Of a stretch of DNA of 64,000 nucleotides, positions 21,661-40,110 are shown one piece after another; position 1 is the first letter of the stretch, and every line of letters starts with the position of its first letter. Under the pieces are notes generated by a model. It searched no databases, was not told the origin of the DNA, and saw only the letters and a list, made by a program, of their open reading frames with translations. The DNA is from Chloroflexota bacterium (GTDB lineage: Bacteria > Chloroflexota > Anaerolineae > Anaerolineales > Anaerolineaceae). Position numbers and translations under genes: made by a program. The stretch spans positions 1 to 64,000 of the forward strand of contig JAKPNN010000035.1 in NCBI GenBank assembly GCA_029548365.1, written 5' to 3'.

Positions 21661-21721
21661 GACAACGACAGTGTGTTTTCGTCGTTCCAGTCTGGAGGCC
21701 GTCGCAATCGAGGTGGGGCAT

Positions 21722-21755: not shown

Positions 21756-21776
21756 AGGTTTCGTTAGCGGGTTGAA

Positions 21777-23693: not shown

Positions 23694-23868
23694 GCCGCAA
23701 AATTCCTTTCAAGAAGAAGTTGATATCACATAGATGCCAATCGCCAGAATTATTATTTTTTATCTAAACCCAATTATGCCGAGAATACTTATAAAAATCA
23801 AGGTAATTGAAATTATTTAGTTTATTGTCGAGCTTAATGAAAGTTTAGATGGCATTCACCATTCAGGA

Positions 23869-23896
23869 TTGCGGAAAATTCGGGATACATTATAAT
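23869..23896 (+). promoter_or_regulatory. Putative promoter for the lipoprotein at 23938
   Basis: TTGCGG (23869-23874) and a perfect TATAAT (23891-23896) are separated by 16 bases, about 40 bases upstream of the start codon. Confidence 0.5.
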
Positions 23897-23937
23897 TTAA
23901 AATCACTCGAACCGGAAAGCTGACTGAAAAGATGGGC

Positions 23938-24687: not shown

Positions 24688-24775
24688 AGGGATTTTTACC
24701 CGGCAGTGAACCCCTGCACGGGTTTCATGTATAATCAGCCGTACACATCATCCTAAACCAACGAAGGAGATCTGG

Positions 24776-25429
24776 ATGCTTCTTATAGATGAACGCCGAA
24801 AAGTTGTGGAATATGCCAGGAAAATGCTCAGCACAGGTTTGGTTAAGGGCACGGGTGGCAATATCAGCCTGACGAACGAAGACAAGAGCCTGGTAGCGAT
24901 CACACCCTCGGGGATTGCTTACGAAACGATGAACCCGGAGGATGTGGTGGTGCTTGACCTGGATGGGAAGCAGGTGGATGGTGATTTGCTGCCCTCCTCC
25001 GAACTTGGATTTCACCTGGCTTTACTGTGTCAACGGGTGGAGATTAAGGCAGTGGTGCATACCCATTCTGATTATTCCACAGCCTTAGCCTGTTTACGCT
25101 GGGAACTGCCCGCAGTGCACTATTTAATTGGCTCTGCTGGCTTCAAAGTCCCACTGGCGCCCTATGCGACCTTCGGCACGCCGGAACTGGCTCGGGGGAT
25201 TTGTGAGAGCATAGGCGAAAGTAACGCGGTGCTGCTGGCAAATCACGGCCTGGTGGCGGTGGGTGTCAGCCTGGGACAGGCCTTTTCTACCGCGGAGATG
25301 GTTGAATATGTGGCTAAGCTGTACCTGATCACCCGGTCGGTGGGGTCGCCGGTGGTGCTCGGCAGGGAAGAGATGCAAGATGTGCTGGAGAAATTCACCA
25401 CCTACGGCGCACAGCCGGGAAGGGGTTAG
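24776..25429 (+). CDS. fucA: Class II aldolase, L-fuculose-phosphate-aldolase type
   Basis: A 217-residue enzyme close in length and pattern to FucA. GTGGNISL and TPSGIAYE bind phosphate. SSELGFH carries the catalytic Glu. AVVHTHSDY supplies two zinc-binding His, and LLANHGLVAVG supplies the third. The segments ALSIL/PAVHYLIGSAG and APYATFGTPEL match FucA well. It splits L-fuculose-1-phosphate into DHAP and lactaldehyde. Relatives also act on 5-deoxyribulose-1-phosphate and 5-methylthioribulose-1-phosphate in the DHAP shunt, relevant because an MtnA-like and an MTA-type phosphorylase lie 6-8 kb downstream. TATAAT sits at 24730-24735; AAGGAG precedes ATG 24776. Confidence 0.87.
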   Translation: MLLIDERRKVVEYARKMLSTGLVKGTGGNISLTNEDKSLVAITPSGIAYETMNPEDVVVLDLDGKQVDGDLLPSSELGFHLALLCQRVEIKAVVHTHSDYSTALACLRWELPAVHYLIGSAGFKVPLAPYATFGTPELARGICESIGESNAVLLANHGLVAVGVSLGQAFSTAEMVEYVAKLYLITRSVGSPVVLGREEMQDVLEKFTTYGAQPGRG

Positions 25430-25724
25430 CGGGCAGGCGCAGACCTGATCGCTGCAGTGACACCCAGTATTCAATCCCTATTTTCTTTGTGAAGCTTATT
25501 CATGTGTGAACAATTGATGGTTCAGCTTCATGTATTCCCTGGCTGAATCCTGTGCGTTTGTTTATGCAGAAAAGGGGAATAGCAGGGCAAACGTAACTGA
25601 CATTTGATTTTTTAACCTGGGCTGGTTGATGATATACTTGGGGTGATAAAAACTCATTTAAATATTAAAATTGTTTCCAAATCAAAATATCCTTTCGATT
25701 TTCATAGAATCAAGGAGGTAAAGC

Positions 25725-27386
25725 ATGTTAAAGAACGGGAAGAGGTTTGCATCTAGTATCTTAAAAAACCTGGTCATTGTCCTTTTCATGAGCACTTTTT
25801 TAAGCGCCTGTGGCCTGGGCGCTGCTGATATGGAAGTGAAGATATATGCTGGCAATAAATTTGATTTTAAGATGACCTGGCTGATTCCAGTGGACTCTTT
25901 TTTGACGCATGGTGTTACTCAAGAGGTTGAGGCTGCTCTGGATGAGATGGTTGCTGAGGCCAGGAATGAAAACGACATTAAAATGACCTGGAAGAGTATT
26001 AAGACAGGTGACCCCAAGATTGTTGGCTATGAATTGCTCGTTCCAAAGACGAAAATATCTGACGAATGGAATGATATATTCACCATGACGAAAGTTACTT
26101 ATAACAATCGGAAAGCTGACTGCATTGATTTCTCGGGTGTCGCCGATTTTCGCTACAGCTTCTCGAGCTTCACCCTCACATTACATGGAGGGAAAATTTT
26201 AGAAACAAACGGTAAGCAGGTGAATTCGAATACAGTGACCTGGGTGAATCCGGGTCAAACGCCCTATGCCATCATGGCGCCAAAGAGTTCTCTCTGGTGG
26301 ATACCGTTGGTGCTGGGGATCATGGCATTGGGCGTGCTGGTGCTTGTTATGAGCATATTGCTGGTAACAGGGAAAGTTAAGGCTTGGGGGGCAGCTGCCA
26401 TAAACTCAGTCAAATGGAAGATTGAGGAGTCCAAACTTGCGGGTCAGAAGAAGAATATTATACAGGAGAAAGAAGCTTTAATTTCAGAACTTGCTAAAAA
26501 AGCCTGGGAAGCACGTGTCCTTCACCACAGCTATACCGAACCTTATTTTGAATTGGAAACGCTGGATGGAAAGAGAGTTTCACTTGCTGAAGAGAACGCC
26601 AGGCTGACTGAAGAACTGCAACAAGTGCGCGAATCCTATGGCAAGGTGGTTAAAGAATACTCCCAACAAACCAACGATATGCAATCTGAACAAAAAGTTG
26701 TCGCGAAAAAACTGAATCAGTCAAAAATCAGGCAACTTGACCTTGAAAAAGAATTAATGAATGCGCTTCAGCATCAGGAAAAGGCAAAAGATGAAATTGC
26801 TGGATATCATAAAAAACTATCACAGGTCCAATCATCCGATTTGCCTGACAAGGAAGCCAGGATGAACGCATTGAAAAATGCGATTATTTCACTCGAAGGA
26901 TCATTGGAGAAGATTTCCATCAGAATCCCCCAAATTGAGATGGAAATATCGCAGATAAAAACGGATCAGGAACCGTTTACCGACCAGTTCGAGCGTTTAA
27001 ACGGTCAGATTTCTGAAGTACAGCGTGAGCGGAAAGAAGCGCTGGCGCCCTTAGAGCAGCAGGTTAACAATCTTGAACAATCGCTGAAATCCAATGCGGC
27101 TGAGATCAATGTTATTCAACAAAAAATGACGCCCTTGATTGAAAGTTTAGGGCCTCTGGTCGAAACTGCCAGACCGTATTCCGGCGAATTGGCTGACCTG
27201 TACCAGCAGATCGATGCATTAAATGCAAATCTTGCATCGGTAACCCAGGATCATGGGTTGATGAGCTCGCGTTTAGAGGCCATTGACAAAGGTGCTGTGC
27301 GCAGCTTCTCGATTATGACTGTTGGGGTTGTATTGATGAGTTTGTTAATTTTGATTTTATTTGTGCTTGTTTTTGTATTAGGCTAA
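25725..27386 (+). CDS. Lipoprotein with transmembrane helix, long coiled coil and C-terminal anchor
   Basis: About 553 residues, preceded by AGGAGGT. A signal peptide ends in the lipobox STFLSAC (Cys about 29). The N-terminal extracytoplasmic domain (about 30-185) is LppM-like. A membrane helix follows (WWIPLVLGIMALGVLVLVMSILLV, split here from its flanks). Residues about 225-525 form a long charged coiled coil with heptad spacing, presumably cytoplasmic. A second membrane helix ends the protein (MTVGVVLMSLLILILFVLVFVLG region). I do not recognise it. Topology suggests a structural or sensing role linking cell surface and cytoplasm. Confidence 0.65.
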   Translation: MLKNGKRFASSILKNLVIVLFMSTFLSACGLGAADMEVKIYAGNKFDFKMTWLIPVDSFLTHGVTQEVEAALDEMVAEARNENDIKMTWKSIKTGDPKIVGYELLVPKTKISDEWNDIFTMTKVTYNNRKADCIDFSGVADFRYSFSSFTLTLHGGKILETNGKQVNSNTVTWVNPGQTPYAIMAPKSSLWWIPLVLGIMALGVLVLVMSILLVTGKVKAWGAAAINSVKWKIEESKLAGQKKNIIQEKEALISELAKKAWEARVLHHSYTEPYFELETLDGKRVSLAEENARLTEELQQVRESYGKVVKEYSQQTNDMQSEQKVVAKKLNQSKIRQLDLEKELMNALQHQEKAKDEIAGYHKKLSQVQSSDLPDKEARMNALKNAIISLEGSLEKISIRIPQIEMEISQIKTDQEPFTDQFERLNGQISEVQRERKEALAPLEQQVNNLEQSLKSNAAEINVIQQKMTPLIESLGPLVETARPYSGELADLYQQIDALNANLASVTQDHGLMSSRLEAIDKGAVRSFSIMTVGVVLMSLLILILFVLVFVLG

Positions 27387-27491
27387 GGCGCTTTACTGGT
27401 GATAATCAGTAAATGGCACCCATTGATGATTTCTTTTCGACGATAGCGGGCAATGGCGAGGGCGTTTATTTTCAACAAATTTGTTTGGTGG

Positions 27492-27540
27492 GTAGATTCA
27501 GGTGTCAGCCCTGCCGAATCTACTTTGAAATTTATTTTTT
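27492..27540 (+). terminator. Hairpin and T-rich tract after the coiled-coil lipoprotein
   Basis: GTAGATTC (27492-27499) pairs with GAATCTAC (27516-27523). The sequence then runs into TTTGAAATTTATTTTTTG. It probably terminates the upstream gene. Confidence 0.55.
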
Positions 27541-27662
27541 GTCACTATTGATTAATCTCAAAATTTACAGGAGGAGAAAAAATAAAAGTTGTGCTTTGCC
27601 CTAATTATTCCACAGAAAATACAGTATATTGATCAATTTGTGTAAATTGTGGTGAAACCCTG

Positions 27663-28103
27663 ATGGATGTTAAAGCTACTGACTCCGATGAAATACCTCA
27701 AACCGCTCAACAGCAAACTCTGGCATCCGCGCCATCCAGCCCGGCAGCCTTTACTGCGTCTCAAGATCCGGTTTCTCATAGAGGGCAGACCAGGCCTTCC
27801 CAGTCGATACAATTTTCTTCGAAGTACTCATTATTAAAAGGTATGGCGAACTTGTGCAATACCCTTGTGATAATTACAGTCATCCTAGCGAGCAGTGTTG
27901 GATTAGTTGGTTTTATTATGCTCTTTACAGATGAAGGCGAATTGGGTCTGATTATCCTCATTGTTGGGCTGATATATGGAACGTTTTCCTATGTTGTTTT
28001 CAAGATCTTGACAGAAGGGATTTTAGTATTGCTTAATATTGAAATGAACACACGCCAGACGGCTAAGTTCACGAAATATCTTGTGGACCATTATTTAGAA
28101 TAG
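27663..28103 (+). CDS. Small membrane protein of unknown function
   Basis: About 146 residues. A disordered, Ser/Pro/Gln-rich N-terminal part (1-55) precedes two membrane helices: about 65-90 (LVIITVILASSVGLVGFIML) and about 95-120 (LGLIILIVGLIYGTFSYVVF). A short helical tail ends in KYLVDHYLE. The spacing resembles DUF-type membrane proteins of two helices; I cannot name a family. It follows the coiled-coil lipoprotein with a hairpin in between. Confidence 0.55.
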   Translation: MDVKATDSDEIPQTAQQQTLASAPSSPAAFTASQDPVSHRGQTRPSQSIQFSSKYSLLKGMANLCNTLVIITVILASSVGLVGFIMLFTDEGELGLIILIVGLIYGTFSYVVFKILTEGILVLLNIEMNTRQTAKFTKYLVDHYLE

Positions 28104-28556
28104 GGCGTTGATGAACAATTGTTGGTAGTGGGCAGTCAGTAGCTGGTAGCTCATATCTGATGGTGGATATTGGGTCATTGTTATATAATCAAAACAGCCT
28201 GATGTCTGATAACATTGCAGACAGTTTGTCCCTGGATTTTCTGCCATGGAGAAGTCGCCTGGATCAATTGACTTTTCCAGGATGATTTCGAGGATATTTG
28301 CGTTATAATAGGATGAGTATGGTTTTAACTTACGCTTCATTTCATATCATTATGCCTTTATCTATAGAAATTATTTAAATGGTAGAAAAGAACAATAAAA
28401 TACTGCAAATCTCTCATCTATTGGGCGAGAAAAACCGTGACTGCAAAGGTTTTATTCTTGCTGAACTGGAATTGATTTCATAAATATTTCGTTGGAGTAT
28501 TTAATTGCTCAGACGGGATTTTTTATTAGACATAGATTAAAAATATTGGAGGCTAA
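28104..28556. other. Intergenic region upstream of the ECF operon
   Basis: About 450 bases without a convincing gene. A perfect TATAAT lies at 28304-28309 with no good -35 box at normal spacing. A small hairpin, AAAACC/GGTTTT, lies near 28431-28453. The long distance from that -10 box to the GTG start (about 240 nt) leaves room for a regulatory leader, but no riboswitch class was recognised. Confidence 0.4.
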
Positions 28557-30257
28557 GTGAGTGAACCCATTGTATCCATTCGAGATTTAAAATACCGTTA
28601 TCGGGGGCAAAAAAGTTTAGCACTTCAGGAAATTAATTTGGCTCTTGAGCAAGGTGAGTTTTTAATGCTGATGGGCCCCAGCGAGGCGGGAAAGAGCACC
28701 CTGGCTGCCACGATAAACGGTTTAATCCCTAATTTCCATATAGGAAAATTAGGGGGAGATGTAGTGGTGATGGGTCGTAACACGAAGGATTATTCGGTAG
28801 CTCAGATGGCGGAAATTGTGGGCATGGTTTTTCAGGATTTTGAGGCTCAGCTCTTCTCCACCAATGTTGAGCTTGAAGTCGCCTTTGGCCCTGAAAATTT
28901 TGCGGTGCCCCGCGAAGAAATCAAAACCCGCATCGATGAAAACCTGGAATATGTGGGTTTGGAGGGATTTCGCAACCGACCGCCGTCCACCCTATCTGGC
29001 GGTCAGAAGCAGAAATTGGCCATCGCGTCGGTGCTGGCATTGAAACCCCAGGTACTGGTGATGGATGAGCCCACCACCGATCTGGACCCGATCAGCAAGA
29101 TGGGCGTATTTGAAATTACCCACCGTTTATGCAAGCGCGATGATCTGACTTTGTTGATTGTTGAACATGAAACCGAAGAAGCTCTTTTTGCAGACAGGAT
29201 TGCACTCATCAAAGAGGGACAATTGATTAAAGTGGGTCCGACACGGGAAATATTAACCGATGTGGCGTTGATGGAATCCCTGGGCGTGATGCCGTTGGGC
29301 ATTCCCAAGTTTTTTAAGGCAGCGGGTGTATCTGAGTTACCGCTTACCCCTGACGAAGGTGTGGAGACCTTTAAATCCCTGAAATTCCAGATTAATGATC
29401 TTGCATACCAGGAGATGGTAGCCAGAGAAAAGGCTAAACTGGAACAACTCAACGAGCCATTGATCCAATGCCAGAACCTTTCACATACCTATAAAGGTGA
29501 GGTTGAAGCGCTGAAAAAAGTTAACATTGAGATTCATCGTGGCGACATGGTGGCGATTATTGGACAAAATGGCAGCGGTAAAACGACCCTGGCCAAGCAC
29601 TTCAACGGACTGCTCCTGCCCACTGAAGGAGAAATCCTGGTTAATGGGAAGCCCACCCGAGAGCAGGGTATTTTTGCCCTCGGAAAAAGTGTAGGTTATG
29701 TATTTCAAAACCCGGATCACCAAATTTTCTCAGAAAAGGTCTTCGATGAAGTTGCCTTCAGCCCGCGCATCAGGAAATTACCCGAGGAGGAGGTCAAACA
29801 GCGCGTGTCGGAGGCTTTAACTGCAGTAGGCCTTGAAGGTTTGGAAGAGGAGGACCCCTTCACCCTGACCAAGAGCGGCCGTCAACGGGTTGCGGTGGCT
29901 TCGGTGCTGGCTTCGAACCCGGATGTCTTAATCCTGGACGAGCCCACCACCGGGTTAGACTACAGTGAACAGAGCAGCATGATGAACATGGTCAGACGTT
30001 TGAATGAAAACGGCAGCACGATCATTTTCATCACTCATCATATGTGGGTGGTGGCTGAATATGCCAAACGCGCCCTTGTGATGAAAGACGGTGATGTTAT
30101 TCTGGGGGGAAGCACCCGGGAGGTGTTTTCCCAGAGCGAAGTTCTACGAGACGCTTTTTTGCGTCCACCCCATTTTGTTGAATTTACCCGTCGTCTGGGT
30201 TACACATTTTTAACACCTGCCGAAATGGAAGCATGTTTAGAAGGAGCGCATAGCTGA
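28557..30257 (+). CDS. ecfA: Energy-coupling factor ATPase, fused double-domain EcfA
   Basis: A 566-residue protein with two ABC ATPase domains in one chain, equivalent to EcfA1 plus EcfA2. Domain 1 has Walker A GPSEAGKST (40-48), signature LSGGQ (146-150) and Walker B VLVMDEPTTDLD. Domain 2 has GQNGSGKTT (about 336-344) and LILDEPTTGLD, but its signature reads LTKSGRQ (about 437-443) instead of LSGGQ. It powers ECF-type vitamin and nucleoside uptake with EcfT and an S component. Start is GTG 28557, after TTGGAGG. The stop overlaps ecfT (TGATG). Confidence 0.92.
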   Translation: MSEPIVSIRDLKYRYRGQKSLALQEINLALEQGEFLMLMGPSEAGKSTLAATINGLIPNFHIGKLGGDVVVMGRNTKDYSVAQMAEIVGMVFQDFEAQLFSTNVELEVAFGPENFAVPREEIKTRIDENLEYVGLEGFRNRPPSTLSGGQKQKLAIASVLALKPQVLVMDEPTTDLDPISKMGVFEITHRLCKRDDLTLLIVEHETEEALFADRIALIKEGQLIKVGPTREILTDVALMESLGVMPLGIPKFFKAAGVSELPLTPDEGVETFKSLKFQINDLAYQEMVAREKAKLEQLNEPLIQCQNLSHTYKGEVEALKKVNIEIHRGDMVAIIGQNGSGKTTLAKHFNGLLLPTEGEILVNGKPTREQGIFALGKSVGYVFQNPDHQIFSEKVFDEVAFSPRIRKLPEEEVKQRVSEALTAVGLEGLEEEDPFTLTKSGRQRVAVASVLASNPDVLILDEPTTGLDYSEQSSMMNMVRRLNENGSTIIFITHHMWVVAEYAKRALVMKDGDVILGGSTREVFSQSEVLRDAFLRPPHFVEFTRRLGYTFLTPAEMEACLEGAHS

Positions 30258-31039
30258 TGGATGCCGAGATTTATATTGACAACAATTCATTTATTCATCG
30301 TCTGGACCCTCGCGTCAAAATTATCATATTTCTTCTGACCTTTGTGGCAATCTTGCTATTTCAGGACCCCTTGTGGATGTTGCCGATTACTGTTTTAATC
30401 GTCATTCAGTTGGTGGCCTCAGGCGCGCTTGTTAATATGCGCCGAATCAGATATATTTTAATAGTTTTGACTGTGTCCAGTATGATCTTATGGAATATAT
30501 TTTCATCCGGCGATACCAAGTTATTCTGGATTGTTTCTGTTCAATCTCTTACCTATGCTGTGTCACGGACCATGCTCATGATCTTGATGATCTCTACCGG
30601 TATGATACTGATTACCTCCACGCGTAATGAGGAACTGGTCAACGGCATGATCCGGTTGGGGATGCCTTACCGGGTTGGCTTTGCGATTTCCACAGCCTTG
30701 CGGCTGGTACCGACGATTGTGACCAGCACCGTCACCATCAGCCAGGCTCAACGCAGCCGCGGCCTTGACCTGGAATCGGGCAATCTTTTAGAAAAATTAA
30801 AGAAATTTTTGCCCTTGCTGGTACCTGTGTTTATCTCATCCATCCGCAATACCAATATATTCGGCATGGCTTTAGAGTCCAAGGGTTTTGGCGCTTCAGA
30901 AAAACGCACCTTTTACCTGGATTTTCAGATGAAGAAAGCAGATTATGTTGTGCTGGCATTTTCCATCTTGTTCATGCTGGTTTCGATTTACTTTGCGGTT
31001 ATGGGTTATGGAAAAATCGAAGGATTAATTCGATCCTGA
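30257..31039 (+). CDS. ecfT: ECF transporter transmembrane subunit EcfT
   Basis: A 260-residue integral membrane protein with four to five hydrophobic helices and the cytoplasmic coupling helices typical of EcfT. The first coupling motif is SQAQRSRGLDLE and the second is ALESKGFG, corresponding to the A-R-S/A-R-G motifs that dock into the ATPase. It joins the EcfA ATPase to the S component. The start overlaps the ecfA stop by one base, so translation is coupled. Confidence 0.92.
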   Translation: MDAEIYIDNNSFIHRLDPRVKIIIFLLTFVAILLFQDPLWMLPITVLIVIQLVASGALVNMRRIRYILIVLTVSSMILWNIFSSGDTKLFWIVSVQSLTYAVSRTMLMILMISTGMILITSTRNEELVNGMIRLGMPYRVGFAISTALRLVPTIVTSTVTISQAQRSRGLDLESGNLLEKLKKFLPLLVPVFISSIRNTNIFGMALESKGFGASEKRTFYLDFQMKKADYVVLAFSILFMLVSIYFAVMGYGKIEGLIRS

Positions 31040-31052
31040 GTTTGGAGGATTT

Positions 31053-32090
31053 ATGCAGTTAAATGAAATCAATGCCCTGCTGCCATTCTTGTTACGGCGA
31101 GAAAACGTCGCCCGTTATGAAGATGGGGCAGTGGTGATGTGCGATCGGCGAAAATATCCCTTTGAGAAGGCCTTTCATCGTTGCCATGATGTCGAAGGTG
31201 CAGCGAGGGCGATTGAAGATATGGTTACCCAGGGTGGCGGTCCGCAATATGTTGGCTTATACGCCATGGCCATGCTGGCAGGACAGGTGGCGGATCAGGA
31301 CCCCATCAAACAGCGGGAGGCTTTTCAAACCGCTCGCCAGCGATTGGTCAGAACTAGGCCGACCAACACCGGCCTGGCGCGCCTTCTGGAAAGCGCCATC
31401 GGGATCATATACGACGCGCTGGATGAAGGTCAATCGGTCGAAACAGCGCTGTTGGAATGGATTGAGCATATTCGTGACCTCAGTTATGATAAACACCTTA
31501 AATGCGGTCAGTTTGGCGCCAGCTTGATTGATGATGGGGATGGCATTCTGACGATGTGCTTTGCAGAAACCTCCCTTTTAATGACTCTAGCGATTGCCAA
31601 ACAACAGGGTAAAAGCATACAGGTATTCACGCCCGAAACCCGGCCTTATCTGCAGGGTGCTCGCCTGACGGCTCCCAGCATCCATGAAATTGGTGTGCCG
31701 GTTAAAATTATTACGGATAATATGCCTGCTCATGTAATTTCAGAGGGTAAAATTAAGAAATATTTCACCGCGGCTGACCTGGTAACCCTGGATGGTCATG
31801 TGGTTAACAAAATTGGTACATTCCAGAACGCACTGGCAGCCCATTATTATGGTGTTCCTTATTTTGTTTTCACCCAGGCGGCTGATAAACAAAAACCCAA
31901 CCGGGCATCAATTGAAATCGAAGCCCGGGATTCTGAAGAAATAAAAACTTGCCGGGGTGTGGCCACCACATTGCTTGAAATCGATGCCTATTACCCGGCT
32001 TTTGATATCACTCCACCTGAGTATGTGGCAGGCGTGATCACCCAGCATGGCATCCTCAGCCCGTATGGTCTGGCGCGTTATTTTGGTTAA
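31053..32090 (+). CDS. mtnA: MtnA-like aldose-1-phosphate isomerase (S-methyl-5-thioribose-1-phosphate isomerase family)
   Basis: A 345-residue member of the MtnA/eIF2B-alpha superfamily. ILTMCFAET holds the catalytic Cys. TPETRPYLQGARLTA is the ribose-phosphate signature. FTAADLVTLDG followed by VVNKIGTFQNALAAHYYGVP matches the A-D-x-x and N-K-I-G-T regions with the catalytic Asp. The typical G-A-D-R-I-x-x-N-G-D is diverged here, so the substrate may differ. Candidates are 5-methylthio-, 5-deoxy- or ribose-1-phosphate. GGAGG precedes ATG 31053. It lies between ecfT and a phosphorylase that would make its substrate. Confidence 0.8.
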   Translation: MQLNEINALLPFLLRRENVARYEDGAVVMCDRRKYPFEKAFHRCHDVEGAARAIEDMVTQGGGPQYVGLYAMAMLAGQVADQDPIKQREAFQTARQRLVRTRPTNTGLARLLESAIGIIYDALDEGQSVETALLEWIEHIRDLSYDKHLKCGQFGASLIDDGDGILTMCFAETSLLMTLAIAKQQGKSIQVFTPETRPYLQGARLTAPSIHEIGVPVKIITDNMPAHVISEGKIKKYFTAADLVTLDGHVVNKIGTFQNALAAHYYGVPYFVFTQAADKQKPNRASIEIEARDSEEIKTCRGVATTLLEIDAYYPAFDITPPEYVAGVITQHGILSPYGLARYFG

Positions 32091-32108
32091 GGATAGGAGA
32101 AAACAAGC

Positions 32109-32891
32109 ATGGATGCAGCCATCATTTTCGGAACCGGCATTTACTCGATTACGGGGTTCAATGGTGTAGAAAAGACGATCGAAACGCCCTATGGCCCGGC
32201 GTTGGTCAACATCGGCACTTATGAGGGCTTTGAACTGGCTTTTTTAGCCCGGCATGGGTTGGACCACACGACCGCACCGCATAAGATTAATTACCGGGCA
32301 AATATCAAGGCGTTGCAAATCCTGGGAGTTAAACACGTACTGGCAACCAACGCGGTAGGCTCAATTACCCGCACCATTCCCCCGATGGGCCTGGGATTAC
32401 TGACCGACTTCCTCGACTTTACCAGCGGCCGGGAGTTTACTTTCTTTGATGGAGGGAACTCAGGTTTGGCTCACACCAATATGGACGTTACCTACTGCCC
32501 GGCTTTGCGGAAAAAGATGCTGGATCTGGCCTCGGAATTTGATTTGAAAATTCATCCAGAAGCTGTGTATGTAGCCACGAATGGCCCGCGCTTTGAAACA
32601 CCGGCTGAGATTCACATGTTCGCCCAATTAGGCGGCGATGTGGTAGGGATGACGGGCATCCCCGAGGTCGTGTTGGCCAGAGAACTGGGAATGCACTACG
32701 CTGCTGTTGCCTACTCGATCAATTGGGCGGCTGGTTTGGAACAGGAAATGAGCTTTGTAGGCGATCAAATGGCAGACATCAAGCAACGTTTAACGATGCT
32801 GTTGGTTAATACTTTAAAAGCACAGCTTGATGAAACCTGTGGTTGTGAACAGGCTGTGATGATGATGCACGAACCGGTTAGAATATCTTAA
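32109..32891 (+). CDS. MTA/MTI-type purine nucleoside phosphorylase
   Basis: A 260-residue PNP/MTAP family enzyme. GTGIYSI starts the phosphate loop. PHKINYRANI, ATNAVGSIT and GPRFETPAEIHMFAQLGGDVVGMT are family motifs. In the base-binding region it has SINWAAGL, with Asn where MTA phosphorylases usually have an Asp-rich T-D-Y-D motif. This suggests a 6-oxopurine base, i.e. methylthioinosine or inosine, in line with a deaminase gene downstream. It would release hypoxanthine and a sugar-1-phosphate for the adjacent isomerase. The specificity reading is inference. Confidence 0.85.
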   Translation: MDAAIIFGTGIYSITGFNGVEKTIETPYGPALVNIGTYEGFELAFLARHGLDHTTAPHKINYRANIKALQILGVKHVLATNAVGSITRTIPPMGLGLLTDFLDFTSGREFTFFDGGNSGLAHTNMDVTYCPALRKKMLDLASEFDLKIHPEAVYVATNGPRFETPAEIHMFAQLGGDVVGMTGIPEVVLARELGMHYAAVAYSINWAAGLEQEMSFVGDQMADIKQRLTMLLVNTLKAQLDETCGCEQAVMMMHEPVRIS

Positions 32892-32911
32892 TTTATTCTT
32901 CCAGTTTTTAT

Positions 32912-32923
32912 AAAGGAGGTGAT
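32912..32923 (+). promoter_or_regulatory. Orphan perfect Shine-Dalgarno sequence
   Basis: AAAGGAGGTGAT is an exact complement of the 16S 3' end but has no ATG at normal distance. The GTG inside it would open a 22-codon frame ending before the S-component gene. It may be a decayed start or a ribosome standby site. Confidence 0.3.
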
Positions 32924-33005
32924 ACCCAACAAAAAAGAAAACCTATCTACCGATCAGCAAGTCTCATCAAATCGAATTGTCTTTTAGTTATTAAGGAGTT
33001 AAATC

Positions 33006-33842
33006 ATGAAAGAAGTTGTGACCATGTGGAAGAACACCCGGATGATTATCCTGGTGGCGCTTTCCGCTGCAATTTACGCAGCATTTCTAATTGTTTTCAA
33101 GGGCGGTATCCCGATTGTGCCCGGTATCACCGAGGTGCGGCCGGCGAATGTCTTCCCACCCGTTTTCGGACTGTTATTTGGCCCGGCTGGCGCCTGGGGC
33201 GCCGCCATCGGCAACTTAATTGGAGACCTGTTTGGCGGTACTTTGGGAATTGGCTCAATCTTCGGTTTCTTTGGGAACTTCTTCCTAGGTTTCATCCCTT
33301 ACAAGATGTGGGGTGCAACCTTTGGCCTGGTGCCCAAGAATGATATGTCCCAGAATACCAATAGCTTCAAAAAAGTTTTGGCCTTTGAACTGGTTTCACT
33401 GGTTGCTGCAGCAGCCTGTGGCATCATTATTGCCTGGTATCTCGACATTGCTGGTATGGTTCCCTTTGCCTTCCTGGCAATTACCATCACCGTGAATAAC
33501 TTTGCTGCTTCTGTTGTCCTGGGCCCCATCTTGTTGCTTTTGCTGTATCCGCGTGTTAAACGCTGGGGTTTGGTGTGGACGGATATCATGGCTAAAGAAG
33601 ATGTTGCTAAGGGCTTTGCCAAGAACATCGGTTCAATTCTCATGATCATTGGTGCGATCGGCGGTTTGGTTGCCGGCGTGCTAGTGGCCATTGGCGTTGC
33701 AGGTCAGCAGTTGTATGGGTTCACAGGAGAACAGGGCCAGGTTGCAGTCTGGTTGTCGGTGCTGCCATTCCTGCTGATGATCATTGTCGCCAGCGTTATG
33801 CTTTCCGGTCGAGAGCAGTTTGTGGAAGAGTTGGAAGATTAA
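33006..33842 (+). CDS. ECF transporter substrate-binding (S) component, QueT-like
   Basis: About 278 residues with six hydrophobic helices. The N-terminal region reads LVALSAAIYAAFLIVFKG, then PGITEVRPANVFPPVFGLLFGP and GNLIGDLFGGTLGIG, resembling the QueT family of S components. Long helix-connecting loops and an extra C-terminal pair of helices make it longer than the usual 170-200 residues. AAGGAG precedes ATG 33006. It completes an ECF module with ecfA and ecfT. The ligand is unknown; neighbours point to a purine nucleoside derivative such as methylthioadenosine. Confidence 0.8.
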   Translation: MKEVVTMWKNTRMIILVALSAAIYAAFLIVFKGGIPIVPGITEVRPANVFPPVFGLLFGPAGAWGAAIGNLIGDLFGGTLGIGSIFGFFGNFFLGFIPYKMWGATFGLVPKNDMSQNTNSFKKVLAFELVSLVAAAACGIIIAWYLDIAGMVPFAFLAITITVNNFAASVVLGPILLLLLYPRVKRWGLVWTDIMAKEDVAKGFAKNIGSILMIIGAIGGLVAGVLVAIGVAGQQLYGFTGEQGQVAVWLSVLPFLLMIIVASVMLSGREQFVEELED

Positions 33843-33866
33843 TCTCGAATAACGTGTTGGAAATAG

Positions 33867-33900
33867 AGGTGAGTGGACATCGAGCCACTCACCTGTTTTA
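33867..33900 (+). terminator. Hairpin terminator between S component and deaminase genes
   Basis: AGGTGAGTGG and CCACTCACCT form a perfect 10-bp stem followed by GTTTTAT. It may end or attenuate transcription before the deaminase gene. Confidence 0.65.
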
Positions 33901-33915
33901 TATAAGGATGATGGC

Positions 33916-35235
33916 ATGATGACCAAAGAGACCAACCTCATCGACACATTATTAACTGGCGGTACGATTATCACCATGAATCCCGAACGATGGGTTTTGC
34001 ATGATGCGGCTGTGGCGGTGAAGGAAGGCAAAATTCTGTGGATTGGGGATGCCAGTGAAGCCAAATCGCGATTTACCGCTGGAAATCGGGTTGATCTACA
34101 GGGCCGGGTGGTTATCCCCGGGCTGGTGAATACACATGGACATTGGGCGATGACGCTCATGCGCGGTTTGGTTGATGACTGTCCACTTGAACAATGGTTA
34201 GGGACCATCTGGCGGGTAGAAGCGGCAGTGCTCTCGCCTGAAACCGTTGTGACCGGTTCTGAGTTGGCCATCATCGAAATGCTGCGTGCCGGTACCACCT
34301 GCGCGGCTGATATGTACTGGTATTACCCGGAGGTGACGGAAACATCCCGGCGAGCAGGGTTCCGCATCGTAACCGGACCCAGTTTTGCTGAAATTGAAGG
34401 GTTTGAGGATTATCGCCATACCAACCAGATGATTGCCATCGAGTACCTGGACAATTATGCCGATGTGCCCCTGGTGCATCCTTGCATCCAGGCGCATTCT
34501 GCTTATACCACGAGTCCGACTACCCTGGAACACGTGATGGGGTTGGTTCATGACCGTGGTTTACTTTTTGTAACCCATGCCTCTGAATCGAAAGGTGAGT
34601 TGGAATTGGTTCAGGAAAAGCATGGCGCACGTCCCATTGCAGTTTTGGATAAGTTTGGTTTGTTAAGTGAGCGCACTTTATTGGCCCATTGTGTACACCT
34701 CACTGATGAGGAAATTGGCCGCCTGGCTGAGACTGGTACCTCGGTGGCGCACTGCCCTTCATCGAACTTGAAGCTGTCTTCGGGGATTGCGCGGGTAGCA
34801 GAACTGCTTGCTCAGGGCGTTAATGTGAGCATCGGCACGGACGGCCCGGCCAGCAATAACGACCTTGACCTGTTTCACGAAGCGCAACTGGCTGCGCTGG
34901 TGCAAAAGGGCGTTACCGGGAATCCGAAGGTATTACCTGCTGAAAAAGTGTTTTCGATGCTCACCATCGATGGAGCTCGCGCCGTTGGTTTGGATGACAT
35001 CATCGGATCGTTAGAGGTTGGAAAATCTGCTGACCTGGTTGTGATCGATTTTAGTTCAGCCAACCTGACTCCCTGTTACGATTATTATTCGCATTTGATT
35101 TATGCCCTTTCGATTGGTGATGTTCGGGATGCCATGGTAGCCGGACAGATGTTGATGAAGGACAGGCAGATGCTTACATTGGATGAAGCTGCAACTCGCG
35201 CCGAAGCCAATCGCATCGCCAGGGAAGTTTTATAA
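33916..35235 (+). CDS. mtaD: MTA/SAH deaminase-type amidohydrolase
   Basis: A 439-residue TRZ/ATZ family hydrolase. Metal ligands are visible in NTHGHWAMTLMRGL (two His), THASES (His), AHCVHLT (His) and GTDGPASNN (Asp). The stretches HCPSSNLKLSSGIARV and GTTCAADMYW are shared with 5'-methylthioadenosine/S-adenosylhomocysteine deaminases. It would convert the adenine base to hypoxanthine in the nucleoside. Placed right after the ECF cluster, which has a phosphorylase that looks 6-oxopurine-specific. Related deaminases act on 5'-deoxyadenosine and adenosine too, so specificity is open. Start at 33916 or 33919. Confidence 0.85.
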   Translation: MMTKETNLIDTLLTGGTIITMNPERWVLHDAAVAVKEGKILWIGDASEAKSRFTAGNRVDLQGRVVIPGLVNTHGHWAMTLMRGLVDDCPLEQWLGTIWRVEAAVLSPETVVTGSELAIIEMLRAGTTCAADMYWYYPEVTETSRRAGFRIVTGPSFAEIEGFEDYRHTNQMIAIEYLDNYADVPLVHPCIQAHSAYTTSPTTLEHVMGLVHDRGLLFVTHASESKGELELVQEKHGARPIAVLDKFGLLSERTLLAHCVHLTDEEIGRLAETGTSVAHCPSSNLKLSSGIARVAELLAQGVNVSIGTDGPASNNDLDLFHEAQLAALVQKGVTGNPKVLPAEKVFSMLTIDGARAVGLDDIIGSLEVGKSADLVVIDFSSANLTPCYDYYSHLIYALSIGDVRDAMVAGQMLMKDRQMLTLDEAATRAEANRIAREVL

Positions 35236-35636
35236 TCCCTCTGAGTCTGTAATAGTGAGACAACTGACGCCAATAATATAGAGTATGGGGCGGTGGAGAA
35301 ATGATAGGTCTCAAAAAACAACATCATCATAGCGGCATTGGATTGATGACAACAGCAGATGTTCACTACGGCAGGCAAAAGAAATTACCCATAGGCGGCA
35401 GATCGTCTTGCAGGCCGCGTATCACAAGAATCCGGAGAGATTTGTGAAAGGAATTTGCGTCCACCCTTGCCGGGGTGGCTGGAGGAATAGTATCACCAGC
35501 AAGACGTGCTTCAACTGGATGAACAACCATGTTTTTTTAGCGATAACTTTCAGAAACGTTGTGTCAAATCATTGACACATTCCGCTTCAAACCACTGATC
35601 GTGAATGGTTCCTTTACAGAGACAACAGGAGTCCCC
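35236..35636. other. Intergenic region before the C_GCAxxG_C_C gene
   Basis: About 400 bases with no supported gene. A hairpin, CCACCC-TTGCC-GGGGTGG, lies at about 35461-35478 and a stretch of unclear repeats follows. No known riboswitch was recognised. Confidence 0.3.
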
Positions 35637-36089
35637 TTGAAATTTGAAGATCAAGCAAAAAAACTATTCGAGGCGCATTACAATTGTGCCCAATCGACGT
35701 TCGGCGCCTTTACCGAGTATTTTAACCTTGACCTGACCACCGCGGTTAGAATCGCAACGCCCTTTGGCGGCGGAATAGGACACAGCGGTGGGATGTGTGG
35801 CGCGGTTAGCGGTGGGATCATGGCCATTGGCCTGGTCAGGGGTATCGATGTTTATGATAAGGATAAAAAAGAAGCCTGCTATGCCCTGGCGAAAGAGTTT
35901 TTAGCCAGATTTTCTGCGCTGCATGGCTCATTAACCTGCCCCGGATTATTGGGGGTGGATATCGGGGACCCATTAGCCCAGCAGGATGCACGAGAGCGGG
36001 ACCTGTTTCGTGTGTTTTGTTCGCAACTCGTCGCCGATGCAGCCCGGTTGGCAGCTGAGGTGTTGGAGTTGGACCAGGATGAGGGGTGA
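35637..36089 (+). CDS. C_GCAxxG_C_C family redox protein
   Basis: About 150 residues, cytoplasmic. The family cysteines are all present: HYNCAQSTF, GGMCGAVSGG (the C-G-A-x-x-G core), LTCPGLLG and VFCSQLV. The family is thought to be redox-active or metal-binding, but its role is unknown. TTG 35637 is chosen as start because AGGAG lies 6 bases upstream and the family N-terminus begins here; the frame is open back to 35559. It follows the deaminase after a 400-base gap and is probably a separate unit. Confidence 0.82.
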   Translation: MKFEDQAKKLFEAHYNCAQSTFGAFTEYFNLDLTTAVRIATPFGGGIGHSGGMCGAVSGGIMAIGLVRGIDVYDKDKKEACYALAKEFLARFSALHGSLTCPGLLGVDIGDPLAQQDARERDLFRVFCSQLVADAARLAAEVLELDQDEG

Positions 36090-36515
36090 GGGATAGGTCA
36101 CCACGACTATCAGTTAAGTAGAGCGCAACAGAGAACTTAGAGCTTAGAGTATTAACAAATTATGGAAATCCCAATATCAAATTGCCTAAAATTAGATTTT
36201 GAGCATGCCATTTATTAAGGTTAAAGATGGAAATTTTTATGGTTGATTAGATTTGTATGATATACTAATAATTAGTTTTACAAAAAATTAGTCTCTCAGT
36301 ACGATTCACGTGAAAAATTCATAATGAATACCAATTTTAGTGTCTACAGAAAGAGAATAAGGGAGTATTAAATGAATTGTTTGCGCCTTGTGGCGCAATA
36401 TTTTTTGGGAGAATAACCATTATTTGCCAGAATGATGACAGGAGGTGCTTATTGAAGGAAAAGTTTTTCCATTTAGCAAAATGACGATTAACTGTTAAGA
36501 ACTATGGAGGATAAG
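36090..36515. other. Intergenic leader upstream of the subtilase with mini-ORFs
   Basis: Contains two very short frames with ribosome sites. The first is ATG 36372, 14 codons, after GGGAG. It overlaps a hairpin, TTGCGCC-TTGT-GGCGCAA (36381-36398), followed by TATTTTTT. The second is TTG 36452, 10 codons, after AGGAGGT. The region 36090-36360 is AT-rich and unassigned. The hairpin with T run could be an attenuator or a terminator. Confidence 0.4.
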
Positions 36516-39500
36516 ATGAAAAAAATAATTTTGAAAGTGTTTACCTTCGTATTGTTGCTCAGCTTCATGGCATCGCCGGTTGTCGCGAAAATGGTGACCG
36601 AACAAGCAAAATCGCCAGATGAACCAAGCTGGGAAAGGCCGCAACGACTTGAGCCTGAATTACTTCCGCAGGAGATCCTGGATAAATTTGAAGGGGGGAT
36701 GACGATTGAAGAATTCTTGGTTCTCAACCAGGGCCCGATCCCGCAAGCTTTGTTGGCTTATGCGGATATCCCGGTTGTTGTTGTGGTGCAACTTGAGAAA
36801 CCTTCGCTGATTGAATATGTTCTTCAGCAGGATTTAAACACACAGAACCGGGCTGACCAGGTTGAGCAAATCGATTATGTTGATGAGCTTAAAAGCGATC
36901 AGGCAGTCGTGCTGGGACAAATTACAGCCACCCGCGGTGCTGAAGTTATCCAAATCGGCGATACCTTTACGAAGACCCTGAATGGCTTTATGCTGCAGGT
37001 TCCAGCAAAGTTGGTTAATGAAATTCGATCTATTTCCGGTGTAAAATCTGTCACCCAAGCGCGGAAGCATGAACCCACTTTAGGCGCGAGTATCCCTTTA
37101 ATTAATGCCGATGATGTGTGGGGTTATATGTATGGCCATAAATTTGGCTTCACCGGTGAAGGTGTGACCATCGCAGTGATCGACACTGGCATTGACTACA
37201 CCCACGCCATGTTTGGCGGTTCAGGCGACCCTGCTGATTACGCGTACAATGACCCCAACATCATTGAAGAAGGCACATTCCCGACGGCGAAAGTGATTGG
37301 CGGTTATGACTTTGCCGGTACGAACTACGATGCAGGCGGAAACACTGGCAGCGTGATTCCTGTTCCGGACGAAGACCCCCTGGATGAATATGGCCACGGT
37401 ACGCATGTGTCCTCAACAGCTGCTGGGTTTGATGTTGGGTTTGGTTCAGGTGTGGCACCGGATGCATTACTGTATGCCGTGAAAGTTTTTGGACGCTCGG
37501 GTTCAACAAACTTAGTCATACATGCCATTGAGTGGGCTATGGATCCTAAAGGTCTGGGGCACCTGGGAGAACCTGTAGATGTGATCAACATGTCCCTGGG
37601 CTCTGATTGGGGTCCGGCAGATGAGTTAGATCCAGAGTATCAGGTCGTTGAAAATGCAACCTCGATCGGTGTGGTGGTGGTGGCATCTGCTGGTAATGCC
37701 GGGAACAGCTCCTATATAGTCGGTTCACCATCGGTTGGTGATTCTGCCATCTCGGTAGCAGCTTCAACCACCGGCTTTCAAACATCACCATACCTTGAAT
37801 ATGAGGATGGAGGCACAAAATCTATTCCCTATACCACATCTTACAATCCCTTTACCGCTACCATTACTGGAGATTTAGTGGATGTGGCTGATTTTGACGA
37901 TGGCGAGTTGTGTGATATCGATGGATTAAATGGAGATGAATTGACCGGCAAGATCGCCTTAATTAAGCGTGGCACCTGTAGTTTCTACGTGAAAATTAAC
38001 AATGCTGAAGACTTGGGCGCAGTGGCTGCCATCATCTACAACAACGCAGCTGGGATCATTTCGATGAATACCGAGGGCTCAACACTACCGGCGGGTTCCA
38101 TTCTCCAAGCGGATGGCGAGCTGTTGAAGGGTAAATCACCCCTCGAAATTTCAATAGGCCCGGATTCAAGGGTAAAGACTTTTCCTGGAGAAGACCCTGA
38201 CACCATCGCGACCTTCTCCTCGCGTGGACCGCGCGGATTTGACTCAAAACTAAAACCAGAAATCACTGCCCCTGGTGTGGCGATTTTTGCTGCTGACATG
38301 GGCAGCGGTAACCTGGGTGTGAGTATGAGTGGCACCTCGATGGCTTCACCGCACGTTGCTGGAGTGGCAGCCTTGATGGTCGAAGCGAATCCATTTTTGA
38401 ATCCTGCACAGATTAAAGCAGCCATGATGAACACAGCGGTAGACTTGGCGGATACAGCAAGTGCACAAATTCCACGTCAAGGTGCTGGCAGGGTTGATGC
38501 GTTCAAATCCGTTAAAACCAGTATCGTTGCTTATGCGGACCCGAAATTGGTCAGCTTGAGCTGGGGCGTGATTGAAATTGCTGATGATTATTCCGATACC
38601 CAAATCATCACCTTAGAAAACTTTAGCCCATTTTTTATTACTCTTAATGTGGACACCCACTTTACGTCATTGTCAGAAGGTGCGACATTGACCCCCGATG
38701 TCAATATAGTGACCGTACCCCCCTTTGGCACAACCAGTGTGAACGTGACCCTGGATCTGGATGCATCGCTCTTGCCCTTTGATTTCGGTACAATTGAAGA
38801 ATACTATGGCTTTGTAACCTTTTCAGCTTGGTGGACACCCTGTGGAGATACCATCAGGGTGCCGTTCTACTTCGTTCCCAGACCATACACCGAGATCATA
38901 GAGCACGATGCAGTTACCCGTTTTGAAGTCAACGATTATGGTTGGGTAGACCTTGAACAACAAGGACCGATTGAATCTGACCTGTGGGCTTTCCCGGTGT
39001 CGCTGGTTTCACCGCAGAACCCTGATGTTTTACCCGCGGCTGATCTGCGTTATATCGGGATGGATTATGGTGGGTCAAGCCCCTACGGAGATATTATCAG
39101 CGCAGCCTTTGCCATGTGGGGCGATGTACACACCAACCAGCCGTTCTTCAACGAGGTCGATCTGTATATTGATACACCCTACGGAAGTGTGGTGAATTTC
39201 AACTACAACTACGCTGCAGCTTCAGGCTCTGGACATGACAACCAGTGGGTTGTCATTCAAGTTGACTTCGCTGATGGGAAGACGTATTTAGGCAGTCCAT
39301 ACACTATTTATGCAGATTACAACTCGGGCATCCAGGAATGGTATTTACCAGCGGACTGGCAGTATGTGGTTGACGAATTTGATTATGAGGTGATCAGCTT
39401 TGACTGGAATGGGGATGACGACTACGGTGGTGCAGCTAGCTTTGACATCTCGAAATGGCCGTTGTCTTGGGTTCTAACCAGTTATAATCCCTATCAAGAA

Positions 39501-39665
39501 GATTTTGGCCTCTTGTTTGCCGTACCCGATTGGTTTGCCTATAAGGCCAGTGGCATCCAGGGGATCATGCTGGTTGATTATCCAGGGAAACCCGGCGCCG
39601 GTCAATCCTACTTTTGGCCCCTTGACCCCTATTTCGCCTATTACATTCCGATCTTTGGGCATTAG
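36516..39665 (+). CDS. Secreted subtilisin-like serine protease (S8) with PA domain
   Basis: About 1049 residues. A signal peptide (KKIILKVFTFVLLLSFMASPVVA) precedes an inhibitor/propeptide region of about 25-180. The S8 catalytic triad is visible: Asp223 in VIDTGIDYTH, His294 in GHGTHVSS and Ser608 in GTSMASPHVAG. A PA (protease-associated) insert lies near 440-545 (GKIALIKRGTCSFYVKINNAEDLGA region). The C-terminal third (about 660-1049) has Fn3-like beta domains and no LPXTG anchor. ATG 36516 has GGAGG upstream. It probably degrades external protein. A terminator follows. Confidence 0.93.
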   Translation: MKKIILKVFTFVLLLSFMASPVVAKMVTEQAKSPDEPSWERPQRLEPELLPQEILDKFEGGMTIEEFLVLNQGPIPQALLAYADIPVVVVVQLEKPSLIEYVLQQDLNTQNRADQVEQIDYVDELKSDQAVVLGQITATRGAEVIQIGDTFTKTLNGFMLQVPAKLVNEIRSISGVKSVTQARKHEPTLGASIPLINADDVWGYMYGHKFGFTGEGVTIAVIDTGIDYTHAMFGGSGDPADYAYNDPNIIEEGTFPTAKVIGGYDFAGTNYDAGGNTGSVIPVPDEDPLDEYGHGTHVSSTAAGFDVGFGSGVAPDALLYAVKVFGRSGSTNLVIHAIEWAMDPKGLGHLGEPVDVINMSLGSDWGPADELDPEYQVVENATSIGVVVVASAGNAGNSSYIVGSPSVGDSAISVAASTTGFQTSPYLEYEDGGTKSIPYTTSYNPFTATITGDLVDVADFDDGELCDIDGLNGDELTGKIALIKRGTCSFYVKINNAEDLGAVAAIIYNNAAGIISMNTEGSTLPAGSILQADGELLKGKSPLEISIGPDSRVKTFPGEDPDTIATFSSRGPRGFDSKLKPEITAPGVAIFAADMGSGNLGVSMSGTSMASPHVAGVAALMVEANPFLNPAQIKAAMMNTAVDLADTASAQIPRQGAGRVDAFKSVKTSIVAYADPKLVSLSWGVIEIADDYSDTQIITLENFSPFFITLNVDTHFTSLSEGATLTPDVNIVTVPPFGTTSVNVTLDLDASLLPFDFGTIEEYYGFVTFSAWWTPCGDTIRVPFYFVPRPYTEIIEHDAVTRFEVNDYGWVDLEQQGPIESDLWAFPVSLVSPQNPDVLPAADLRYIGMDYGGSSPYGDIISAAFAMWGDVHTNQPFFNEVDLYIDTPYGSVVNFNYNYAAASGSGHDNQWVVIQVDFADGKTYLGSPYTIYADYNSGIQEWYLPADWQYVVDEFDYEVISFDWNGDDDYGGAASFDISKWPLSWVLTSYNPYQEDFGLLFAVPDWFAYKASGIQGIMLVDYPGKPGAGQSYFWPLDPYFAYYIPIFGH

Positions 39666-39690
39666 ATACTGCCCAGTAAGGGGTAAAATC

Positions 39691-39722
39691 GAGGCTGCTC
39701 GCAAGGGCAGCCTCTTTTTTTT
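39691..39722 (+). terminator. Rho-independent terminator of the subtilase gene
   Basis: GAGGCTGC and GCAGCCTC form an 8-bp stem with an 8-nt loop followed by eight T. Confidence 0.9.
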
Positions 39723-39726
39723 GTTT

Positions 39727-40110
39727 ATTGAATGGTGATCCCACTCGCTGCGCTCGGGGACAATGATGGTGAATGGTGATCCCACTTCGCGCAGCACTCC
39801 CTGTGCCCTTTAAGGGCGTCGAGCGCCTGCGCTCGGGGACGATGATAGTGAATGGTGATCCCACTTCTCGCAGTACTCCCTGTGCCCTGTAAGCGTATTG
39901 CGCGCCTGAGCTCGGGAACTTCGTAGCTGAGAGCTGAAAGGTGCAAGGTTTTTTTATGAGCCCAAATTCTTAATCCCAAATTCCTGATTTCAAATTCCAA
40001 ATTTTCTGCGGCGGTCGCATGATTTCCCTGTCACCCAATATTTTCTGTAAACCTATTTCAGGACGACACAACCATCACCATTCACCATTTACCATTCACC
40101 AAATTCCCAT
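39727..40110. repeat. Mixed repeat block
   Basis: 39735-39780 and 39838-39860 hold copies of the module GTGATCCCACTCGCTGCGCTCGGGGAC...GATGATGGTGAAT. Two copies of the dispersed element C(T)TCGCGCAGCACTCCCTGTGCCCT lie at about 39785 and 39864. 40068-40102 shows heptamers in the opposite direction (CACCATT, CACCATT, TACCATT). There is no gene between 39722 and 40121. Confidence 0.75.

Follow-up and report, generated by a model that had tools for sequence, protein, structure and literature searches.

5'-Deoxyadenosine and 5'-methylthioadenosine (MTA) are by-products of S-adenosylmethionine (SAM) enzymes that inhibit such enzymes and are generally exported as waste, according to excerpts of PMC6079011, PMC10986504 and PMC12632272. 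The same excerpts describe the dihydroxyacetone phosphate (DHAP) shunt or 5-deoxyribose disposal (drdK-drdI-drdA; mtnK/mtnP-mtnA-ald2), in which a phosphorylase or kinase, an MtnA-family isomerase and a class II aldolase yield DHAP and an aldehyde, and which in some clusters is accompanied by a transporter. The subject here is a gene cassette of a Chloroflexota bacterium (Anaerolineaceae; assembly GCA_029548365.1, contig JAKPNN010000035.1) that joins enzymes of these families to an energy-coupling factor (ECF) transporter. The window, i.e., the whole stretch of DNA analysed, spans positions 1 to 64,000 of the contig; the source genome measures 1.65 Mb in 48 contigs and is ~71% complete.

Two described routes start with a deamination. 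In Pseudomonas aeruginosa, MTA deaminase and 5'-methylthioinosine (MTI) phosphorylase deaminate the nucleoside and then release hypoxanthine by phosphorolysis (excerpt of PMC6302742). The M. jannaschii salvage by 5'-deoxyadenosine deaminase, MtiP and MtnA likewise combines a deaminase with a promiscuous phosphorylase acting on 5'-deoxy and 5'-methylthio inosine; the excerpt of PMC6302742 mentions no importer for it, and an excerpt of PMC6079011 gives a different proposed end product. QueT and QrtT transporters are ECF systems whose S components carry preQ1, queuine or queuosine (excerpt of PMC11130926). The individual chemical steps discussed below are known in principle (excerpts of PMC6079011, PMC6302742, PMC10986504 and PMC12632272). 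Among the matches listed from the open-licence PMC literature, no paper on a 5'-deoxynucleoside ECF importer or on this cassette was found.

The cassette reads as the known DHAP shunt with the inosine form as its point of entry and with a dedicated importer attached. Compared with the described shunt it adds a deaminase, a phosphorylase of the 6-oxopurine type and an ECF importer. Unlike the P. aeruginosa route, it has an importer, can end in aldol cleavage, and coexists with canonical MTAP in eight of 11 cassette genomes and with canonical MtnA in all 11. In contrast to QueT and QrtT, its S component is linked to enzymes for SAM by-products. On balance, the locus probably represents an uptake-linked DHAP shunt. 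Its substrate would be an adenosine nucleoside that derives from SAM and has a 5'-deoxy or 5'-thio group, with 5'-deoxyadenosine, MTA or both as the likeliest candidates.

We infer the imported ligand, the order of the reactions and the 5' specificity as follows. EcfA, EcfT and the S component would import the nucleoside, which the deaminase would convert to its inosine form. The phosphorylase would cleave the latter to hypoxanthine and 5-deoxy(thio)ribose-1-phosphate, and the isomerase, termed MtnA2 here, would form the corresponding ribulose-1-phosphate. Finally, the aldolase would yield DHAP and an aldehyde (acetaldehyde in the case of 5-deoxyribulose-1-phosphate). A common by-product of SAM enzymes, those of the radical-SAM type among them, would thereby be detoxified and supply the cell with purine and carbon. 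The first-pass annotation of the window had already placed the enzymes in one pathway, which is supported. It had let that pathway end in a ribulose-1-phosphate; this compound is better seen as the step before the end, since the aldolase can complete the shunt.

Gene content of the cassette

The genes of the cassette are real and the cassette is conserved. The six genes named by the first-pass annotation all lie on the plus strand and match their claimed families in Pfam and NCBIfam. Together with two neighbors they are:

24776-25429, plus strand: class II aldolase, DrdA/FucA-like (PF00596, 180.3 bits)
28557-30257, plus strand: ecfA, fused two-domain ECF ATPase (TIGR04520, 470.7 bits over a cut-off of 315, two stretches)
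30257-31039, plus strand: ecfT, ECF transmembrane T component of the CbiQ family (PF02361, 101.1 bits)
31053-32090, plus strand: MtnA2, divergent MtnA-like sugar-1-phosphate isomerase (PF01008, IF-2B family, 161 bits)
32109-32891, plus strand: MTAP/MTIP-like purine nucleoside phosphorylase of 6-oxopurine type (PRK09136, 220.2, cut-off 223)
33006-33842, plus strand: ecfS, S component, own branch of Pfam QueT by its sequence (PF06177, 70.0 bits, cut-off 33.7)
33916-35235, plus strand: amidohydrolase deaminase, probably of the MTA/S-adenosylhomocysteine (SAH)/5'-deoxyadenosine deaminase group (PF01979, 234.4 bits)
35559-36089, plus strand: C_GCAxxG_C_C protein (PF09719, 105.6 bits), 323 bp 3' of the deaminase

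The near-contiguity reported for the first four genes holds: ecfA and ecfT overlap by 1 base, followed by gaps of 13 and 18 bases, and the next two gaps measure 114 and 73 bases. The range first assigned to the system (28557-36089) contains the six genes, but omits the aldolase and includes the C_GCAxxG_C_C gene, which was rejected as a cassette member because it falls in no shared neighbor cluster. With the aldolase, the phosphorylase, MtnA-family isomerase and class II aldolase of a DHAP shunt occur together in the window, the aldolase lying 3.1 kb upstream of ecfA and separated from it by other genes.

The S component and its linkage to the enzymes

Family searches and structure comparison identified EcfA, EcfT and an S component, i.e., all parts of an ECF transporter. 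The model of the S component (pLDDT 89.9) carries two extra C-terminal helices and matches 4hzu_S best (VIA Z 14.6), followed by ThiT, RibU and the S components for pantothenate, folate and biotin. All 19 entries listed at Z of at least 8 are ECF-type substrate components, and the next row, at Z 6.2, is unrelated. Foldseek gave no match for the model at E of 0.001 or below (best ThiT, E 0.035), and a sequence search of the PDB gave no solved relative at E up to 1.

Pfam QueT is the sole Pfam match of the S component. In a tree of 89 rows (L114, whose S gene reads only 101 aa, was left out), however, long branches (support 100/100) set the family apart from five further QueT-like S proteins found in the class, and its sequence places it as a distinct branch of Pfam QueT. 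The nearest relatives of the window protein are from Anaerolineaceae, Chloroflexota. Two S matches (L027 and L028, of G276 and G245) show one internal TAG, which is the gene's own end; L069 and L070 are open over 275 aa.

The Pfam match and the presence of Tgt in 17 of 18 genomes would suit an importer of queuosine precursors with the enzyme genes as bystanders. This is very unlikely in view of the long branch and of an enzyme linkage that extends over three phyla. Furthermore, Rfam at its gathering threshold detected no preQ1 riboswitch in positions 21000-40000 of the window or in 29 loci, only T-boxes and tRNAs, and no queuosine gene was recognized among the recurrent S-gene neighbors, named by eye or by family scans. 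Of the QueT-like label, the family match therefore stands, whereas a queuosine context does not.

Linkage was followed at several distances. S matches occur in 18 of 61 genomes (the source genome plus 60 related ones), and eight of the 18, the source genome among them, reach no less than 72% identity. In a class sample of 396 genomes, 41 contain matches, 12 of which are full length with at least 71% identity; a 103-residue fragment at 76% in G159 was left out of this count. Eleven of the 396 encode an isomerase relative whose identity is 60% or higher, and all 11 also possess the S gene (Fisher 1.5e-20, uncorrected for kinship and with identity tiers set after seeing the lists). The order ecfA-ecfT-isomerase-phosphorylase-ecfS-deaminase recurs in close relatives, some of which miss one gene or reach a contig edge.

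A wider survey covered the best 80 of 404 confirmed S relatives in named genomes, with neighbor profiles built from clusters. The phosphorylase was found in 45 loci, an isomerase in 40, the deaminase in 36 and an aldolase (FucA/DrdA or RhaD type) in 20; at least two of the four enzymes are present in 44 loci and all four in 18. The latter span Chloroflexota, Bacillota and Spirochaetota. For the 34 most similar loci (L092-L125) the respective numbers are 33, 30, 28 and 12. The shunt enzymes accompany two separate S clades, one of Chloroflexota and one of Bacillota/Spirochaetota, with differing gene orders. In Caldanaerobacter subterraneus (L139), for example, the order is deaminase, aldolase, zinc alcohol dehydrogenase, mtnA, ecfA, ecfT, phosphorylase, ecfS and methionine gamma-lyase family gene. 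Thermanaerothrix daxensis also carries a shunt-enzyme cassette. The S component thus co-occurs with the enzymes across genomes, Chloroflexota included; the first-pass annotation had named missing co-occurrence as an outcome that would refute it.

RpiR-type and GntR-type regulators recur around the S loci. Before counting, L085 (partial S), the deaminase matches of L145 (one of which, when scanned, was HutI) and the aldolase and dehydrogenase matches of L128 (opposite strand, far off) were dropped. Binning errors may affect the organisms assigned to some contigs, for example L102, L108, L121, L126, L127 and L131. In S-component relatives from Latescibacterota, Gemmatimonadota and Zixiibacteriota and in one more such relative (L150, L160, L162-L163, L165-L167, L170), the S gene stands without an adjoining ecfT and mostly without ecfA; several of them lie amid apparent sugar-acid dehydratase genes, as judged by eye.

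The enzymes of the proposed shunt

The isomerase had been described as MtnA-like. It does belong to the MtnA family, but it is a divergent paralogue that stays below the MtnA cut-off and has lost MtnA motifs. With TIGR00512 (MtnA) it scores 198.4 against a cut-off of 279, and cassette isomerases of other genomes score 188-216. In 36 of 43 survey isomerases, the window enzyme included, RGAPA is replaced by TQGGGP or TQSGGP; the CNAGxxATxxYGTAL loop is shortened to C plus FAE or FGE, again in 36 including the window. The catalytic Cys and Asp (the equivalents of Cys160 and Asp240) are kept in all 43. Seven of the 43 are canonical, and both kinds occur together in L140 and L143. The model of MtnA2 (pLDDT 91.0) is closest to Bacillus subtilis MtnA (2yvk, TM 0.86).

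Canonical MtnA over its cut-off is encoded elsewhere in 18 of 18 genomes, several times on the same contig as AhcY. Canonical MTAP (GPRFST, TDYD) is found elsewhere in the eight cassette genomes G014, G011, G028, G026, G109, G074, G245 and G315 (truncated); none was seen in the fetched stretches of G000, G276 and G232, which is not a full search. Plain methionine salvage is therefore not the likely purpose of the cassette and was rejected as its main role, MtnA2 also falling short of the MtnA cut-off and motifs. The cassette is thus a second set of enzymes, which fits an uptake from outside.

A DrdI-like role is predicted for MtnA2. In a plasmid collection, all four fetched loci (Lactobacillus intestinalis, Acetoanaerobium noterae, Fusobacterium vincentii and Enterococcus raffinosus, one of the four annotated there) combine MtnA2 with a class II aldolase and a kinase of the MtnK family that passes the family cut-off; this is the kinase-isomerase-aldolase trio described in an excerpt of PMC6079011. 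According to that excerpt, DrdK is active on 5-deoxyribose and methylthioribose and has no detectable activity on ribose. Among 13 Bacillota stretches with the MtnA2 motif, a kinase lies within 6 kb in one, a phosphorylase in seven and an aldolase in four.

Known 5-deoxyribose clusters sometimes include sugar transporters (excerpt of PMC6079011), so that the importer could serve free 5-deoxyribose, methylthioribose or a purine base rather than a nucleoside. Such a cargo has the faintest likelihood of those considered: a profile of five such kinases had no match in the 80 loci, the deaminase and phosphorylase are nucleoside enzymes, and the same enzymes occur with a Bmp/PnrA-type importer in G031.

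Other MtnA-like paralogues were noticed along the way. One with VVQGGPP lies near apparent futalosine-pathway menaquinone genes (MqnA, MqnC/MqnE, by eye) in L279 (1744-7606), L280 (8615-15775) and L283 (4285-11082), adjoins a phosphorylase-like gene in L279 and L280, and may act on a futalosine-derived sugar phosphate. Another, with VVQGAGD, occurs near C_GCAxxG_C_C-like genes in L337 (8767-10406), L338, L339 and L340, directly adjacent in all but L338. Apparent methylmalonyl-CoA mutase and cobalamin adenosyltransferase genes are seen by eye in L337, L339 and L340. Adenosylcobalamin enzymes can release 5'-deoxyadenosine. The window likewise has its C_GCAxxG_C_C gene just 3' of the cassette. 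A second ECF-isomerase-phosphorylase arrangement is found in L334 (760-6016, Bacillota): after an IIQGAPP paralogue come genes for a distantly related S component (84 bits), a pair of ECF-type ATPases, ecfT and a phosphorylase.

The phosphorylase scores 227.8 with the MTAP model, below the cut-off of 274.85, and its closest solved relative is the MTIP of P. aeruginosa (3ozb). Its SINWAAG motif had been taken as a 6-oxopurine signature, and the comparison supports this. At the positions of Ser178 and Asp220 in human MTAP, all 46 phosphorylases (45 loci and the window) carry Glu and Asn like the 3ozb base site, and Asp is absent from position 222 in each of them; we take these residues to have the base-site roles assigned to them in MTAP and MTIP. 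The PRK09136 cut-off is passed by the phosphorylases of L139 (246.4) and L269 (234.4).

At the 5' end of the nucleoside, ordinary purine nucleoside phosphorylases (PNPs) contact the 5'-OH with a His (His257). Such a His is seen in eight of nine ordinary PNP-type enzymes encoded in these genomes (the exception is L196), whereas the corresponding stretch lacks a His in 38 of the 46 cassette phosphorylases, that of the window included. This suggests a 5'-deoxy preference of the window phosphorylase, which may not hold for every cassette since the other eight have a His at or next to this place.

The aldolase exceeds the cut-off of NF005302 (L-fuculose-phosphate aldolase; 272.5 versus 264). Its closest solved relatives are 6btd/6btg, with 221.6 bits for 6btd and 199.8 for the fuculose-phosphate aldolase 4c24. 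An excerpt of PMC6079011 identifies these structures as the B. thuringiensis enzyme DrdA, an aldolase acting on 5-deoxyribulose-1-phosphate. A role in fucose metabolism was rejected, as no fucose gene was recognized in the open reading frame list of the window. A relative of the aldolase gene precedes ecfA in G011, at a distance of ~0.33 kb, and in G002 and G028, where it lies farther off. Next to the deaminase, L116 and L120 encode RhaD-type aldolases, that of L116 with a score above the family cut-off, and a second kind of DHAP-forming aldolase therefore seems to have been recruited.

The deaminase matches 4dzh best among solved structures (294.6 bits), ahead of 4f0r (290.9), which is named MTA/SAH deaminase, and 4dyk/4gbd (287); 4dzh, 4dyk and 4gbd do not bear that name in the match list. 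It scores 442.6 with PRK09045 (cut-off 540) and 348.4 with PRK07228, the 5'-deoxyadenosine deaminase model (cut-off 522).

Candidate ligands and biological meaning

The residues of the deaminase aligned to TM0936 do not discriminate between SAH and MTA, which bears on an import of SAH, or of SAM-derived thioethers generally, with AhcY or the deaminase pathway downstream. In nine Actinomycetota loci, mostly of Rubrobacteraceae (L129, L130, L132-L135, L145, L149, L152), ecfS directly precedes ahcY at -19 to 13 bases. The ECF-linked AhcY of Rubrobacter taiwanensis is the lower scorer of two (485.8 versus 508.4, cut-off 497.6; copy assigned by coordinates). In total, ahcY is found in ten of the 80 loci and a methionine gamma-lyase family gene in 16, and one of three scanned members of the latter family passes its curated cut-off. 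An Arg of TM0936 that binds the SAH carboxylate is, as judged by eye, conserved in the Caldanaerobacter deaminase and absent from that of the window. AhcY is also encoded elsewhere in 17 of 18 Chloroflexota genomes searched, and to our knowledge there is no SAH route for the shunt enzymes. For this locus, an importer of SAH or such thioethers is accordingly improbable.

Apart from the linkage, the strongest hint that the S component carries a nucleoside comes from a swap of importers. In G031, a genome of a single contig in which the S search gave no match, the genes for deaminase, phosphorylase, MtnA2 and aldolase adjoin those of an ABC importer (Bmp/PnrA-type binding protein, ATPase and two permeases). 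A second ABC cluster, L320 of the Clostridia genome G452, combines MtnA2, a deaminase and a phosphorylase with transporter genes of the kinds seen in G031, namely one ATPase and one permease; Pfam did not recognize its binding-protein fragment. G452 also holds an ECF cluster (L148) with canonical MtnA and an MTAP/MTI-type phosphorylase, while the ABC cluster has MtnA2 and a PNP-like phosphorylase, which suggests two parallel nucleoside routes.

Several findings count against the proposed shunt for 5'-modified nucleosides, or against its generality. Of the 80 loci, 34 have none of the four enzymes (ten adjoin ahcY, the rest other neighbors or none), and none of these enzymes adjoins the S genes of class relatives with 50-64% identity (L076-L083). 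The contig continues past ecfS without a deaminase in L097 and L103. The distance of the window aldolase and the small share of loci with an aldolase weaken the last step, and the Caldanaerobacter aldolase is nearer to 4c24 (287.2) than to 6btd (274.6). Five of the 13 Bacillota MtnA2 stretches have no partner at all. The window phosphorylase stays just under the PRK09136 cut-off, and the deaminase under those of its NCBIfam models. A His at or near the 5'-OH place is present in eight of the 46 phosphorylases (L108, L119, L122, L141, L146, L148, L157, L168); the alignment is unsure, with four of the eight sharing the same column. Lastly, the G031 phosphorylase is of the ordinary inosine/guanosine type (PRK08202, 338 over 218) and keeps the 5'-OH His.

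The last two findings would suit an import of ordinary adenosine or inosine, in which case MtnA2 and the aldolase would convert ribose-1-phosphate to DHAP and glycolaldehyde. Halophilic archaea possess a ribulose-1-phosphate route, and the window aldolase reaches 200.6 of the 300 demanded by the model of the halophile ribulose-1-phosphate aldolase. G402 places a classical adenosine deaminase beside MtnA2 and a phosphorylase, and L143 and L154 have phosphorylases of the PNP type. The latter two, however, carry Glu at the place of the His, which most cassette phosphorylases, including that of the window, lack altogether. MtnA2 keeps company with a methylthioribose kinase in the plasmid-collection loci, and the cassette genomes hold other phosphorylase-superfamily genes. 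An adenosine or inosine importer is thus rather unlikely, though it deserves more weight than the other alternatives.

Within the favored uptake-linked shunt, 5'-deoxyadenosine is preferred over MTA, since the window aldolase resembles DrdA and MtnA2 is accompanied by kinases and aldolases. MTA or SAH is kept as a candidate because of the methionine gamma-lyase and AhcY neighbors, and adenosine because of the G031 phosphorylase and the eight His-bearing enzymes. More broadly, the chances are about even that this S branch, at least in Chloroflexota, Bacillota, Spirochaetota and Actinomycetota, forms a widespread and undescribed group dedicated to SAM-derived adenosyl by-products (5'-deoxyadenosine, MTA and perhaps SAH), to which each lineage adds a second salvage set. 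The isolates Thermanaerothrix daxensis, Ornatilinea apprima and Caldanaerobacter subterraneus carry the S gene together with these enzymes, and the proposal is therefore open to experiment.

If it is true, 5'-deoxyadenosine and MTA would also be scavenged as food through a dedicated importer. An ECF importer would then serve waste nucleosides instead of vitamins and would be evidence for a trade in radical-SAM by-products between microbes. A ligand would be assigned to an orphan part of Pfam QueT, which would caution against labelling every protein of this family a queuosine importer, and a function would be given to an isomerase subfamily that is annotated near MtnA yet fails the MtnA tests.

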